This document shows, piece by piece, positions 35,682 through 41,337 of a stretch of DNA of 41,400 bases (its first letter is position 1; each line of letters begins with the position of its first letter). Origin of the DNA: Oerskovia merdavium (lineage in GTDB: Bacteria; Actinomycetota; Actinomycetes; Actinomycetales; Cellulomonadaceae). The stretch lies in assembly GCF_014836755.1 (NCBI RefSeq), contig NZ_JACSQF010000009.1, positions 63,881-105,280 on the forward strand, in the 5' to 3' direction. The position numbers were made by a program, and so were the translations under genes. Below the pieces are notes generated by a model that was given only the letters and a program-made list of their open reading frames with translations, was not told where the DNA came from and did no database searches.

Positions 35682-36290
35682 ATGCCCCCCACCCGCGCCG
35701 AGAAGGCCCGCGCGACACGCACCCGCATCCTCGACGCGGCGCACGAGTTCTTCGTCACGAACGGCTGGACCCGCACCTCGGTCGAGGACGTCGCACGCGC
35801 GGCGGGCGTGGCCACACAGACGATCTACTACACGTTCGGCACCAAGCACGCGCTCTTCAAGGAGCTGCTCGACGTCCGCATCGCGGGAGACCACGACGAC
35901 GTCGCCACGCTCGACCGCCCCTGGGCCCGCGAGGTGCTCGCCGAGCCCGATCCCGCACGTCACCTCGCCCTGCACGTCGCGGGCGCCCGCGCCGTCCTCG
36001 AACGCGTCGCCCCCCTCCTGCGCGTGCTGCGCGACGCCGCGCCCGGCCTGCCGGCCCTCGCCGACCTGTGGGCCGCCAACCAGGAGCAACGACGGACCGT
36101 CGCTGCGACCCTGACGAGCGCGCTCGCCACGAAGTCCGCGCTCCGCACCAGCACGCAGGTCGCGACCGACATCACCCACGCACTGCTCAGCCCGGACACG
36201 TACGGCACGCTCGTGCTCGACCTGGGCTGGTCCCCTCAGGCCTGGCAGGACTGGGCGACCGACGCGCTCGTGCGTCAGCTCCTGCCGTAG
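35682..36290 (+). CDS. TetR/AcrR-family transcriptional regulator
   Basis: Dimeric repressor of 202 residues. The N-terminal helix-turn-helix is clear: ATRTRILDAAHEFFVTNGWTRTSVEDVARAAGVATQTIYYTFGTKHALFKELLD. The C-terminal ligand domain is helical and unidentifiable. The ATG at 35682 has GGAG 4 nt upstream; a TTG at 35655 would add nine residues but lies close to the second operator. Divergent from the reductase gene, whose promoter is covered by two palindromes, so it probably represses both itself and the reductase. Confidence 0.93.
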   Translation: MPPTRAEKARATRTRILDAAHEFFVTNGWTRTSVEDVARAAGVATQTIYYTFGTKHALFKELLDVRIAGDHDDVATLDRPWAREVLAEPDPARHLALHVAGARAVLERVAPLLRVLRDAAPGLPALADLWAANQEQRRTVAATLTSALATKSALRTSTQVATDITHALLSPDTYGTLVLDLGWSPQAWQDWATDALVRQLLP

Positions 36291-36398: not shown

Positions 36399-36404
36399 TA
36401 GGGT
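36399..36404 (+). promoter_or_regulatory. -10 box of the metG leader
   Basis: TAGGGT followed by 7 nt and the ATG of the leader ORF at 36412; TTCAGG at 36375-36380 with 18-bp spacing is a weak -35. The leader ORF would be leaderless. Confidence 0.55.
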
Positions 36405-36411
36405 CGGACGC

Positions 36412-36462
36412 ATGAGCTGCTCGTCGACCGTCATGATGCGCCCCACCCGGGGCCCTTCGTGA
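36412..36462 (+). CDS. candidate Met-rich leader peptide of metG
   Basis: Sixteen-codon ORF encoding MSCSSTVMMRPTRGPS, ending in TGA. It begins exactly 7 nt after a TAGGGT -10 box, so it would be the very 5' end of the transcript, and codons 8 and 9 are tandem ATG. It lies 132 nt before a methionyl-tRNA synthetase gene and upstream of a terminator hairpin. Slow decoding of the paired Met codons when charged Met-tRNA is low would stall the ribosome and keep 36448-36457 free for antitermination. Coding status is inferred from position and architecture only. Confidence 0.5.
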   Translation: MSCSSTVMMRPTRGPS

Positions 36463-36513
36463 TGCGCTGAGCACGCTCGTCACCACCCAAGGCCTCGCCG
36501 CAGCGAGGCCTTT
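36448..36513 (+). promoter_or_regulatory. candidate transcription attenuator ahead of metG
   Basis: Terminator: AAGGCCTCGC (36489-36498), loop CGCA, GCGAGGCCTT (36503-36512), then T; a perfect 10-bp stem. Antiterminator: CGGGGCCCTT (36448-36457), at the end of the leader ORF, can pair with AAGGCCTCG of the left arm (nine pairs, one G-T, one bulged C). A ribosome finishing the leader would cover 36448-36457 and favour termination. A further 7-bp hairpin (36552-36558 with 36563-36569) precedes the metG ribosome-binding site. No other gene is visible in 36291-36593. Confidence 0.5.
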
Positions 36514-36593
36514 CGTGTGTCCGGGCCCGGTGCGGTCGAGGCGCCCGTCGAGGCACCTCCCAAGGTGCCGCAGTCCCCGAGAGGACCACCGCC

Positions 36594-38217: not shown

Positions 38218-39759
38218 CTACCGCAGCGCCGGTGCGTGCGCCTCGAGGAACCGGTAGACCTCGGTCTGGTCCACGCCCGGGAAGGCCCCCACGGGCATCG
38301 CGGCGAGCATGCTCGCGTGCGGGCGCGCGCTGGGCCACGACTGCTCGCCCCAGCGCTCGGTCAGCGCGGCGGGCGGGCGCCGGCAGCACGACTCGTCGGG
38401 ACAGCGCGAGACCGTGCGCTCGCTCGTCTCGCGCCCCCGGAACCACTTGACGTGCGCGAACGGCACGCCCACGCTCACCGAGAACTGGCCGTCGTCGGAG
38501 TCCTGGACGCGCGAGGTGCACCAGTAGGTGCCGGTCGGGGTGTCGGTGTACTGGCTGAACGGGCTCAGGCGGTCCTCGACCGCGAACACCGTGCGCGCGG
38601 TCCAGTGGCGGCACACGTACTGGCCCTCGACCGCGCCGAGGGGGTCCGCGGGGAAGCGCACGCCGTCGTTCTCGTAGGCCTTGTGGATGATCCCGGACTC
38701 GTGGATCTTCATGAAGTGCACCCCGATGCCCAGGTGCGTCGTGGCGAGGTTCGTGAACCGGTGGGCCGCGGTCTCGTAGGACACCGAGAACGCGTCGCGC
38801 AGGTCCTCGACCGAGATCTCGCGGGCGTCCTTGGCCTCCTTGAGGAGCTTGACCGCGTCCCGCTCGGGCAGCAGCAGCGCGGCCGAGAGGTAGTTGGCCT
38901 CGACGCGCTGGCGCAGGAACTCGGCGTAGTCGCGCGGTTCGTGGTGGCCCAGGACGTGCGACGCGAGCGCCTGGAGCAGGGCCGAGCGCGGGTCGCTCGA
39001 CGCGCGCGTGCCCGTGCTGGGCAGGTACACGCGGTGGTGGCGCAGGTCGATGACCGAGCGGGTCGAGTGCGGCAGGTCGTGCACGTAGTGCAGCGAGAAG
39101 CCCAGGTGGGTCGCGAGGTCGGCGGCCACGCGCTGCGACATGGGTCCGCGGGCGTGCCCGACGCCGTCGAGCAGCTCGCGCGCGGTGGCCTCGAGCTCGG
39201 GGAAGTGGTTGTCCTGGGCGCGCATGGTCGCGCGGAGCTCGGTGTTCGCGCGGCGCGCCTCCTCGGGGGTCGCGGCCCGCTCGGTGTGCAGGCGCTCGAG
39301 CTCGCGCTGGAGGCCCACGATGGCCTCGAGCGCGTCGCTCGGGAGGGACTTGCCGACCCGCACCGCGCCCAGCCCGAGCGAGGCGAACAGCGGACCGCGC
39401 TGCGCCCGCTCGAGCTCGATCTCGAGGGCCGCGCGCCGGGTGGGCGGCTCGGCCGAGAGCAGGTCCTCGACGCTCGCGCCGAGCGCACGGGCGATGGCCT
39501 GGAGCTGGGAGAACTTGGGCTCGCGGCGCCCGTTCTCGATCACGGACACCTGCGAGGGCGCACGCCCGATCGCGGCACCCAGGTCGTCGAGCGTCATGCC
39601 CCTCTCGGTGCGCAGGTGCCGGATGCGGCGGCCGATCGTCAGGGCGTCGGCCTCGTCCTCGACGGCCAGGGTGCCCCCGAGGGGACCGAGGGACTCGCCT
39701 GACGTGCCTCTGATCTTCTGCACCGCGCCGGGGTCAGTTGCCATGACTGAGGGTGACAC
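38218..39759 (-). CDS. ramB: RamB-like XRE regulator with IrrE-like and ScfR C-terminal domains
   Basis: Transcriptional regulator of 513 residues. An XRE helix-turn-helix (about 41-100, [33 protein letters not shown]) is followed by an IrrE/DUF955-like region with ASHVLGHHE (about 266-274) and a C-terminal ScfR-type domain rich in Cys ([21 protein letters not shown]). This is the layout of RamB, which controls glyoxylate and acetate or propionate genes in Corynebacterium and Mycobacterium; location beside aceA fits. The zinc-peptidase HExxH motif is degenerate (HVLGH). The GTG at 39759 is preferred over GTG at 39777 and ATG at 39744 because AAGGAG is 6 nt upstream. Acyl-CoA or a related metabolite is the likely signal. 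Confidence 0.88.
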
Positions 39760-39780
39760 ACGCCACTCCTTGCGCACAAC

Positions 39781-39800: not shown

Positions 39801-39921
39801 ACGAAGAAAGTCCTTGTGGACCCCTTGCGCGGCGAAGGAAGGTCGTTCCACGGCCACCGCTCACCCCGAACGGCGACCGGAACGAGTACCACCGCACGCA
39901 ACGAAGCTCTGGAGGCACCCC

Positions 39922-41337
39922 GTGACCACCCCGCCCATCATCAGCCGTCGCTCCGAGAACGAGTACGCCACGCCCCGCCCGGCGTCGGCGACCTCCCGGA
40001 CCGAGGCCGTCACGGCCCCCGTCGCATCCTCCGGCCACACCCCCTCGCGCCCCGGCGACCAGCGCCAGTCCGCGGCCGACCTCGCGCTCTCCTGGTCGAC
40101 CGACCCCCGCTGGGCCGACGTCCAGCGCGACTACACGGCAGAGGACGTCGTGGCCCTGCGCGGCTCGGTGCGCGAGGAGCGCACCCTGGCCCGTCGCGGC
40201 GCGGAGAAGCTGTGGGACCTCATCCACACCGAGGAGTGGGTCGCCGCGCTCGGCGCGATGACCGGCAACCAGGCCGTGCAGCAGGTGCGGGCCGGTCTCC
40301 AGGCCATCTACCTCTCGGGTTGGCAGGTCGCGGCCGACGCCAACCTGTCCGGCCAGACCTACCCGGACCAGTCGCTCTACCCTGCGAACTCGGTCCCGGC
40401 CGTCGTGCGCCGCATCAACAACGCCCTGCTGCGCGCCGACCAGATCGAGACCGCCGAGTCTCCCCTGGGGGCACCGGAGCGGGACTGGATCGCCCCCATC
40501 GTCGCCGACGCCGAGGCCGGCTTCGGCGGGCCCCTCAACGCCTACGAGCTCATGCACTCGATGATCGAGGCGGGCGCGGCGGGCGTGCACTGGGAGGACC
40601 AGCTCGCGTCCGAGAAGAAGTGCGGCCACCTGGGCGGCAAGGTCCTCGTCCCCACCGCGCAGCACATCCGCACGCTCAACGCGGCGCGCCTCGCCGCCGA
40701 CGTCGCGGGTGTCCCGACCGTCATCATCGCCCGCACCGACGCACTCGCCGCGGACCTCATCACGTCCGACGTCGACCCCCGCGACCAGGAGTTCCTCACG
40801 GGCGAGCGCACGGCCGAGGGGTTCTATCGCACGCGCCCCGGCATCGACACGGTCATCTCGCGCGGACTGGCCTACGCCCCGTACGCCGACCTCATCTGGG
40901 TCGAGACGGGCGAGCCGGACCTCGAGCTGGCCCGCCGCTTCGCCGAGGTGATCCACGCGCAGTACCCCGACAAGAAGCTCGCGTACAACTGCTCGCCGTC
41001 GTTCAACTGGAAGAAGCACCTCGACGACGCCCAGATCGCGAGCTTCCAGAAGGAGCTCGCCGCGATGGGCTACGCGTTCCAGTTCATCACCCTGGCCGGC
41101 TTCCACGCCGTGTCCCACTCCATGTTCGAGCTCGCCCGCGGGTACAACGACCGCGCGATGAGCGCCTACGTCGAGCTGCAGGAGGCCGAGTTCGCCTCCG
41201 AGGCCGACGGCTACACGGCCACCCGCCACCAGCGGGAGGTCGGCACCGGCTACTTCGACCGGGTCGCCACGGCTCTCAACCCCGACAGCGCCACCCTCGC
41301 GCTCGCCGGATCCACCGAGACCGCCCAGTTCCACTAA
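39922..41337 (+). CDS. aceA: isocitrate lyase
   Basis: Glyoxylate-cycle enzyme splitting isocitrate into glyoxylate and succinate, needed for growth on acetate and fatty acids. The 471-residue product has the active-site signature KKCGHLGGK (232-240, Cys234), the metal-binding DAEAGFGG segment, [16 protein letters not shown], and [20 protein letters not shown]. It is longer at the N-terminus (about 45 residues, Ser/Ala/Pro-rich) than the usual class I enzyme. GTG start with GGAGG 6 nt upstream. The divergent RamB-like gene and a palindrome in the spacer suggest carbon-source control. No malate synthase gene is visible in the window. Confidence 0.97.

Follow-up and report, generated by a model that had tools for sequence, protein, structure and literature searches.

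A leader with tandem methionine codons precedes a second methionyl-tRNA synthetase gene in Oerskovia merdavium and other Actinobacteria: a candidate trp-type attenuator

In the window analysed here—the whole stretch of 41,400 nucleotides from Oerskovia merdavium—a methionyl-tRNA synthetase (MetRS) gene is preceded by a leader that combines a short upstream open reading frame (uORF), containing two adjacent Met codons, with a terminator-like hairpin, an arrangement that is far beyond chance. From its sequence and conservation, we consider it highly probable that this leader is a trp-type, ribosome-mediated transcription attenuator sensing elongator Met-tRNA(Met). The gene that it would control is not an ordinary housekeeping metG; it belongs to a second, distinct MetRS lineage. 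Although this class of mechanism is known, its use for this amino acid and this target gene, and its wide spread together with one lineage, appear to be undescribed.

Architecture of the leader

Within the leader, the Met codons are followed in order by a C-rich segment 1, a G-rich segment 2 formed by the tail of the uORF, and segments 3 and 4, which together make the terminator hairpin (Table 1). An earlier note on this DNA had placed the TAGGGT hexamer, the 7-nt interval, the 16-codon uORF with its ATGATG, the pairing tail and the 10-bp hairpin, and all of these were verified. The same note had named folding of the leader as a check, and the fold of positions 36412-36519 reaches -60.6 kcal/mol (z = -6.49), an energy attained by none of 200 dinucleotide shuffles. 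At the window leader, a generic scanner that demands 5 T in 8 found no terminator, and a sigma-70-type scanner found no promoter.

Table 1 Parts of the leader and the gene downstream, in window coordinates
Feature	Position	Strand	Basis or remark
-10-like hexamer TAGGGT	36399-36404	+	7 nt 5' of the uORF ATG
7-nt spacer CGGACGC	36405-36411	+	between TAGGGT and ATG 36412
Leader uORF MSCSSTVMMRPTRGPS, 16 codons	36412-36459, TGA 36460-36462	+	sequence and comparison within the genus and with relatives
Tandem Met codons ATG ATG (putative sensor)	36433-36438	+	inside the leader uORF
Segment 1 (GCCCC), directly 3' of the Met codons	36440-36444	+	fold; pairs with 36449-36453; alignment columns 10-15
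Segment 2 (CGGGGCC)	36448-36454	+	partner is segment 1 (protector) or 36491-36497 (antiterminator)
uORF tail CGGGGCCCTT	36448-36457	+	able to pair with the left arm of the 10-bp hairpin
Small internal hairpin within the predicted 2:3 antiterminator	36459-36483	+	fold and conservation in the genus
Segment 3, left arm of the terminator hairpin	36489-36498	+	10 bp, loop of 4
Segment 4, right arm of the terminator hairpin	36503-36512	+	followed by a weak T-tract
Weak T-tract after the hairpin, TCGTGTGT	36513-36520	+	sequence
Shine-Dalgarno-like AGAGGA of the MetRS gene	36580-36585	+	sequence
Second methionyl-tRNA synthetase gene, 535 aa	36594-38201	+	TIGR00398 metG, 362 bits

One alternative is a known metabolite- or tRNA-binding riboswitch, such as the T-box and SAM elements that control Met and synthetase genes elsewhere. 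No Rfam family, T-box and SAM riboswitch models included, attains its gathering score at any point in the window, and we regard this explanation as very improbable.

The downstream gene belongs to a second MetRS lineage

The window MetRS scores above the 336.35-bit cut-off of the metG model and carries the motifs HLGH and KLAKS, which we take to be the class I HIGH and KMSKS signatures. The earlier note was therefore right to call the target a methionyl-tRNA synthetase, though not in treating it as ordinary metG, as the same genome encodes a canonical MetRS paralogue on another contig (G000:C11) that is 40% identical to the window protein. By sequence, the solved chain 2x1l, presumably the MetRS of M. 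smegmatis, lies closer to this canonical copy (431 bits) than to the window-type enzyme (325 bits). The name MetRS2 already denotes a structural type in the available text of PMC9071491 and is hence avoided here.

Searched with the NCBIfam metG model, 34 of 34 genomes encode both the window-type lineage and a canonical MetRS (467-512 bits)—33 reached through named loci and hand-picked from the best matches, L078 being left out, together with the O. merdavium genome itself. In a search with the window protein at E 1e-60, 24 of the 33 had returned a single match, as if the window type were the sole MetRS in many genomes; this was an artefact of query and threshold, as all 34 have the canonical enzyme. 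Among 19 further genomes of the class, five have both types and 14 show the window-type lineage alone. Overall, a canonical MetRS thus accompanies the window type in 39 of the 53 genomes tested, and the window type stands alone in 14 of 53, several of which are drafts in each of which a canonical copy may have been missed. The lineage is patchily distributed, occurring, at E 1e-120, in 10 of 221 family genomes (seven of these being the genus) and in 36 of 394 genomes of the class. Several large genomes also contain further MetRS-like genes that fall below the metG cut-off (G233:C23, G236:C5, G221:C472 and others).

Conservation of the uORF and its probable start

The leader is kept in all seven Oerskovia genomes, almost invariant in the alignment from TAGGGT or TAAGGT through the uORF and hairpin, whereas little is conserved on its 5' side and the interval between the leader and the MetRS start varies more than the leader does. 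Six of the seven share the uORF peptide MSxSSTVMMRPTRGPS; in L008, one inserted T lengthens the peptide to MSFSSTVMMRPARGPFVMR and the Met pair is retained. Conserved bases past the uORF stop may be explained by the small internal hairpin.

For a wider comparison, we assembled 87 related upstream regions: 10 from the family and 77 named loci, the latter being the best 80 of 576 after L032-L034 were dropped because they duplicate the contigs of L004, L006 and L009. These loci are an uneven sample of organisms, covering Micromonospora, Actinoplanes, Streptomyces, Actinomadura, Saccharothrix, Jiangella and others. A short uORF with an in-frame internal ATGATG is present in 69 of the 87, against a mean of 0.5 and a maximum of 2 of 87 in 40 sets of dinucleotide shuffles, and in none of 27 regions upstream of canonical MetRS genes, a control drawn from 20 of the 33 foreign genomes and the seven genus genomes. 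If an internal Met with a C-rich stretch 3' of it is enough to qualify a uORF, the count rises to 84 of 87. The 18 regions without tandem Met comprise 15 with a single or displaced Met (L099 doubtfully so) and three without such a uORF: no Met uORF was found upstream of the MetRS gene in L046, L054 (Saccharomonospora) and L051 (a MAG labelled delta proteobacterium), where regulation may be either lost or different. The earlier note had pointed to orthologues without the Met codons or the hairpin pairs as evidence that would tell against its reading; instead, both are retained in relatives from many Actinobacteria genera.

All seven genus genomes have TAGGGT or TAAGGT before the uORF, and 70 of the 84 homologous uORFs have a TANNNT box at a distance of 5-9 nt from the start codon, compared with 91 of 945 for all ATG and GTG in the pooled regions, a background that includes the homologous uORFs themselves. 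Given that the window hexamer ends only 7 nt from the ATG, transcription probably begins at or beside that codon, so that the uORF would be leaderless. What the earlier note had called an oddity is thus not unusual among these leaders, most of which have such a box at this distance, and leaderless attenuator uORFs are also reported for S. lividans in the available text of PMC8079986.

These patterns bear on the plainest alternative, in which the hairpin merely terminates the upstream TetR-family gene (ending at 36290) and the uORF is a chance frame. A terminator roughly 200 nt 3' of a same-strand gene would be ordinary. Nonetheless, the leader persists in seven Oerskovia genomes though its 5' flank is little conserved, the uORF and hairpin recur across many genera as a unit before window-type MetRS genes, and canonical ones lack the tandem-Met uORF; we give this alternative next to no credence. 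The chance uORF, taken by itself, is ruled out by conservation in the genus, the excess over shuffles, the TANNNT box and the canonical controls.

Pairing in the putative terminator, antiterminator and protector

Pairing was assessed on an alignment of 67 leaders, obtained from the 84 uORF regions after removal of L048, L090 and L099 (weak hairpins or doubtful uORF), of L043, L069 and L082 (truncated region) and of 11 near-identical rows. Pairs occupy 84.9% of cells in the terminator stem, both partners having changed in 23 cells, and none of 500 shuffles reaches this percentage, this number of doubly changed cells or the covariation score; two of the five terminator covariation measures are ordinary (reached by 159 and 166 of 500 shuffles). 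We also used a swap test in which each strand is offered partners from other clades and a rank of 0.5 signifies no coevolution, with groups assigned by hand from organism names and leader type. Native terminator partners beat swapped ones (rank 0.20), and the terminator stem is selected as a pair.

The 2:3 antiterminator behaves differently. It is paired in 90.9% of cells, versus 28-64% when slid, but its covariation is weak: 16 of 500 shuffles reach its covariation score, 475 of 500 reach its number of doubly changed pairs and its swap rank is 0.50. The antiterminator rests on a conserved GGGG/CCCC core and on geometry, with no coevolution beyond the core. The 1:2 protector, whose register shifts by two bases between clades, ranks 0.44, and the 4:5 and 4:6 pairings show no clear selection (0.36 and 0.43). 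RNAalifold recovers five pairs only from the 67-row alignment. The covariation that the earlier note had looked for in its two hairpins is accordingly present in the terminator and not clear in the antiterminator.

In the window, 36448-36454 is predicted to pair with 36491-36497 around the small hairpin, at -20.3 kcal/mol, as long as segment 4 is still missing; with segment 4 present the terminator fold prevails, at -31.2 kcal/mol. The bare 9-bp antiterminator drawn in the earlier note gives -8.0 kcal/mol, against -18.8 for the bare terminator, so that although this pairing is conserved and its geometry fits, the exact 9-bp version is much the weaker of the two. Because the terminator beats the antiterminator in energy, antitermination would have to be kinetic, as in known attenuators.

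Counted from the opening base of the final Met codon, the G-run of segment 2 begins after 13 or 14 nt in 56 of 66 leaders (range 13-17; L109, with no G-run found, accounts for the remaining row). With the spacing so nearly fixed, and given the size of a ribosome's footprint, a ribosome stalled at the Met pair should sit over segment 1, with segment 2 still free to pair. In five loci (L079, L100, L103, L104 and L106) the uORF ends with MMPR and its stop falls within the 1:2 hairpin loop, and a terminating ribosome should there be positioned on segment 2.

A stalled ribosome might, alternatively, respond to something other than a lack of Met-tRNA, the uORF arresting it through the nascent chain or an antibiotic in the manner of erm leaders. 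Drug-responsive uORFs, such as that of whiB7, exist in Actinobacteria, and the second MetRS might itself be drug-resistant. The peptides, however, are unconserved beyond Met and the residues encoded by segments 1 and 2 (MSCSSTVMMRPTRGPS, MITPSTQHRMMPPHRGC, MNAQVMMAR and VSTARVTAEAASPRMMLMSMPSGLFRAS among them), and no conserved arrest motif of the macrolide type is present in those compared; the constant feature is instead the Met codons, at a near-fixed distance from segment 2 and 5' of the gene for the Met-charging enzyme. We therefore hold drug- or peptide-responsive arrest to be improbable.

Downstream of the stem core, T averages 3.5 per 10 nt versus 1.5 expected (n = 65). The 10-bp hairpin followed by T that the earlier note described is thus present and conserved, with the qualification that its T-tract is weak and falls below the scanner rule. 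This weakness counts toward another reading, translational or two-level attenuation, in which a hairpin that includes the Shine-Dalgarno sequence is the main or a second gate and the upstream hairpins act by rearranging it instead of by terminating transcription. In relatives, an arm 5' of the Shine-Dalgarno region is able to pair with it, native arms outdo swapped ones in 15 of 16 groups (mean rank 0.26), and the arms differ by clade, being CGTCTCCC/GGGAGACG in L035 and GGGGCTCC/GGAGCCCC in L094; at least four Shine-Dalgarno bases are paired in 84% of 62 folds. Against this, the region in Oerskovia mostly folds no better than shuffles (z of +0.20, +1.69, +0.23, +0.75, -1.54, +0.78 and +0.48), and the mean z over 62 of the 67 leaders is only -0.78. 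Mean Shine-Dalgarno pairing probability is 0.66 compared with 0.62 in shuffles (64 loci), and the stem score only modestly exceeds that of shuffles (12.3 versus 9.8 in 81 loci; 8.3 versus 8.4 in 15 canonical controls). Furthermore, the 4:5 pairing that would open the Shine-Dalgarno hairpin is not clearly selected, and the T enrichment after the terminator stem favours termination. We judge a translational or two-level gate unlikely as the account of the leader: a translational second gate is a possible lead in relatives and is not convincing in Oerskovia. Within L035-L111, a Shine-Dalgarno hairpin lies within about 55 nt before the MetRS start, with clade-specific, compensating arms.

Association of the leader with one MetRS lineage

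A covariance model of the leader is specific. In the O. merdavium genome, the window site scores 65.2 bits and the next two matches 23.9 and 22.9 bits, neither of them before a MetRS gene. Across 394 genomes of the class, searched with stricter filters, 19 of 19 matches of at least 42 bits lie directly 5' of a window-type MetRS gene; six of these are sequences used to build the model and 13 are absent from it. At 34 bits, the match in L185 is real and that in L184 is not, and none of the weaker matches checked (L186-L194) precedes a MetRS gene.

The converse count leads to the same association. All 36 window-type MetRS genes in the 394 genomes have a uORF with one or more putative sensor Met codons, tandem in 30; seven of the 36 are shared with the 87 regions above and 29 are not. 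Three of the 19 model matches, at loci whose best protein match is partial (L168, L174 and L183), stand outside this set of 36. With a threshold of 42 bits, the covariance model itself recovers just 16 of the 36. Together with the retention of Met codons and hairpins across genera, this tie to the window-type MetRS supports the earlier note's proposal of a Met-responsive attenuator.

A diverged, Met-rich leader is found in one genus, g76 (family f25), in which uORFs such as VSTARVTAEAASPRMMLMSMPSGLFRAS start with GTG, preceded by TAGGAT, and a GAGGCC...GGAGCCTC hairpin is present in 13 of 13 loci (L210-L218, L220-L222 and L224). In most of these loci segment 1 is arranged differently, with the Met codons enclosed by CCGGAT...ATCCGG. 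The window-type lineage alone was found in 13 of 13 genomes of this genus, and the leader is therefore not confined to spare MetRS copies.

Proposed mechanism

Under ribosome-mediated transcription attenuation, which we prefer, RNA polymerase would start at or near the uORF ATG with a ribosome close behind. When charged Met-tRNA is ample, that ribosome would pass the ATGATG, reach the stop codon and cover segment 2, whereupon segments 3 and 4 would form the terminator and the MetRS gene would be off. If Met-tRNA became scarce—through Met starvation, or because the housekeeping MetRS is poisoned or overwhelmed—the ribosome would wait at the Met pair and cover segment 1; segment 2, left free, would trap segment 3, no terminator would form and the extra MetRS would be made. 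Should the uORF not be initiated at all, 1:2 and 3:4 would form and the gene would stay off.

This last case exposes a conceptual problem for any such attenuator, as a failure of MetRS also lowers initiator tRNA and starves initiation of the uORF. Alone among the amino acids, Met makes ribosome-mediated attenuation look self-defeating, since charged Met-tRNA is needed to start the uORF, and the leader would presumably answer to a shortage of elongator Met-tRNA while initiation still works. Its occurrence in many Actinobacteria genera, tied to one MetRS lineage, offers a way to ask how scarcity of elongator and of initiator Met-tRNA are separated.

Relation to known systems

The likenesses to known attenuators are several, and each has its limits. 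Canestrari et al. 2020 reportedly described leaderless polycysteine uORF attenuators of mycobacteria; these are leaderless, as the window uORF probably is, and like it contain runs of the sensed codon, but sense Cys. An auxiliary, indolmycin-resistant TrpRS gene of S. coelicolor is said, by Vecchione and Sello, to be inducible through Trp leader attenuation. As with the window MetRS in 39 of the 53 genomes tested, such a TrpRS is a second synthetase beside the housekeeping enzyme; the auxiliary TrpRS differs in acting on Trp and has reported indolmycin resistance. An auxiliary indolmycin-resistant TrpRS is also described for S. griseus in the available text of PMC6804068. The leader likewise points to an inducible spare MetRS, which would be relevant to MetRS inhibitors as the auxiliary TrpRS is to indolmycin.

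Closer in form are the trpS and leuS attenuators predicted in Streptomyces (Seliverstov et al. 2005, PMC1262725). As far as the available part of that survey describes them, these share with the window leader an actinobacterial host, a short uORF with cognate codons of the downstream synthetase and, as proposed for the window leader, an antiterminator and a terminator, but sense Trp or Leu rather than Met. The regulated sets in the same part of the survey are those of Trp, Cys and Leu, with T-boxes at isoleucyl-tRNA synthetase genes, and for methionine operons it reports that no conserved RNA structure lies upstream (PMC1262725). The M. tuberculosis ilvB1 attenuator, in the available text of PMC13236596, has a uORF with sensor codons and mutually exclusive hairpins, as proposed for the window leader, from which it differs in sensing branched-chain amino acids and in preceding a biosynthetic gene.

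Nearest in the amino acid is metL of S. lividans TK24, a leaderless uORF 5' of metNIQ for which the available text of PMC8079986 proposes dependence on Met; with this proposal, Met attenuation as an idea is already in print. As the window uORF probably is, metL is a leaderless Met uORF in an actinomycete, but it has 29 codons with scattered Met, precedes a Met uptake operon, was described in one genome and has termination that is called unclear (PMC8079986). None of the eight leaders named in the available text of that paper precedes a MetRS gene, and no Met leader before a MetRS gene was found among the matches listed in the open-licence literature.

More speculatively, the leaders may constitute a class-wide RNA family attached to one MetRS lineage and operating a double gate, in which 2:3 antitermination is joined in many relatives by release of the Shine-Dalgarno sequence. 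Such a family would read elongator apart from initiator tRNA and supply a spare MetRS on demand against natural MetRS inhibitors or Met starvation; we offer this larger picture tentatively and think it unlikely to hold in full.

Elsewhere in the window, a regulator-like frame on the minus strand (38218-39777) weakly resembles RamB, at 52 bits against a model cut-off of 700. It adjoins a divergent frame at 39814-41337, which we take to be isocitrate-lyase-like.
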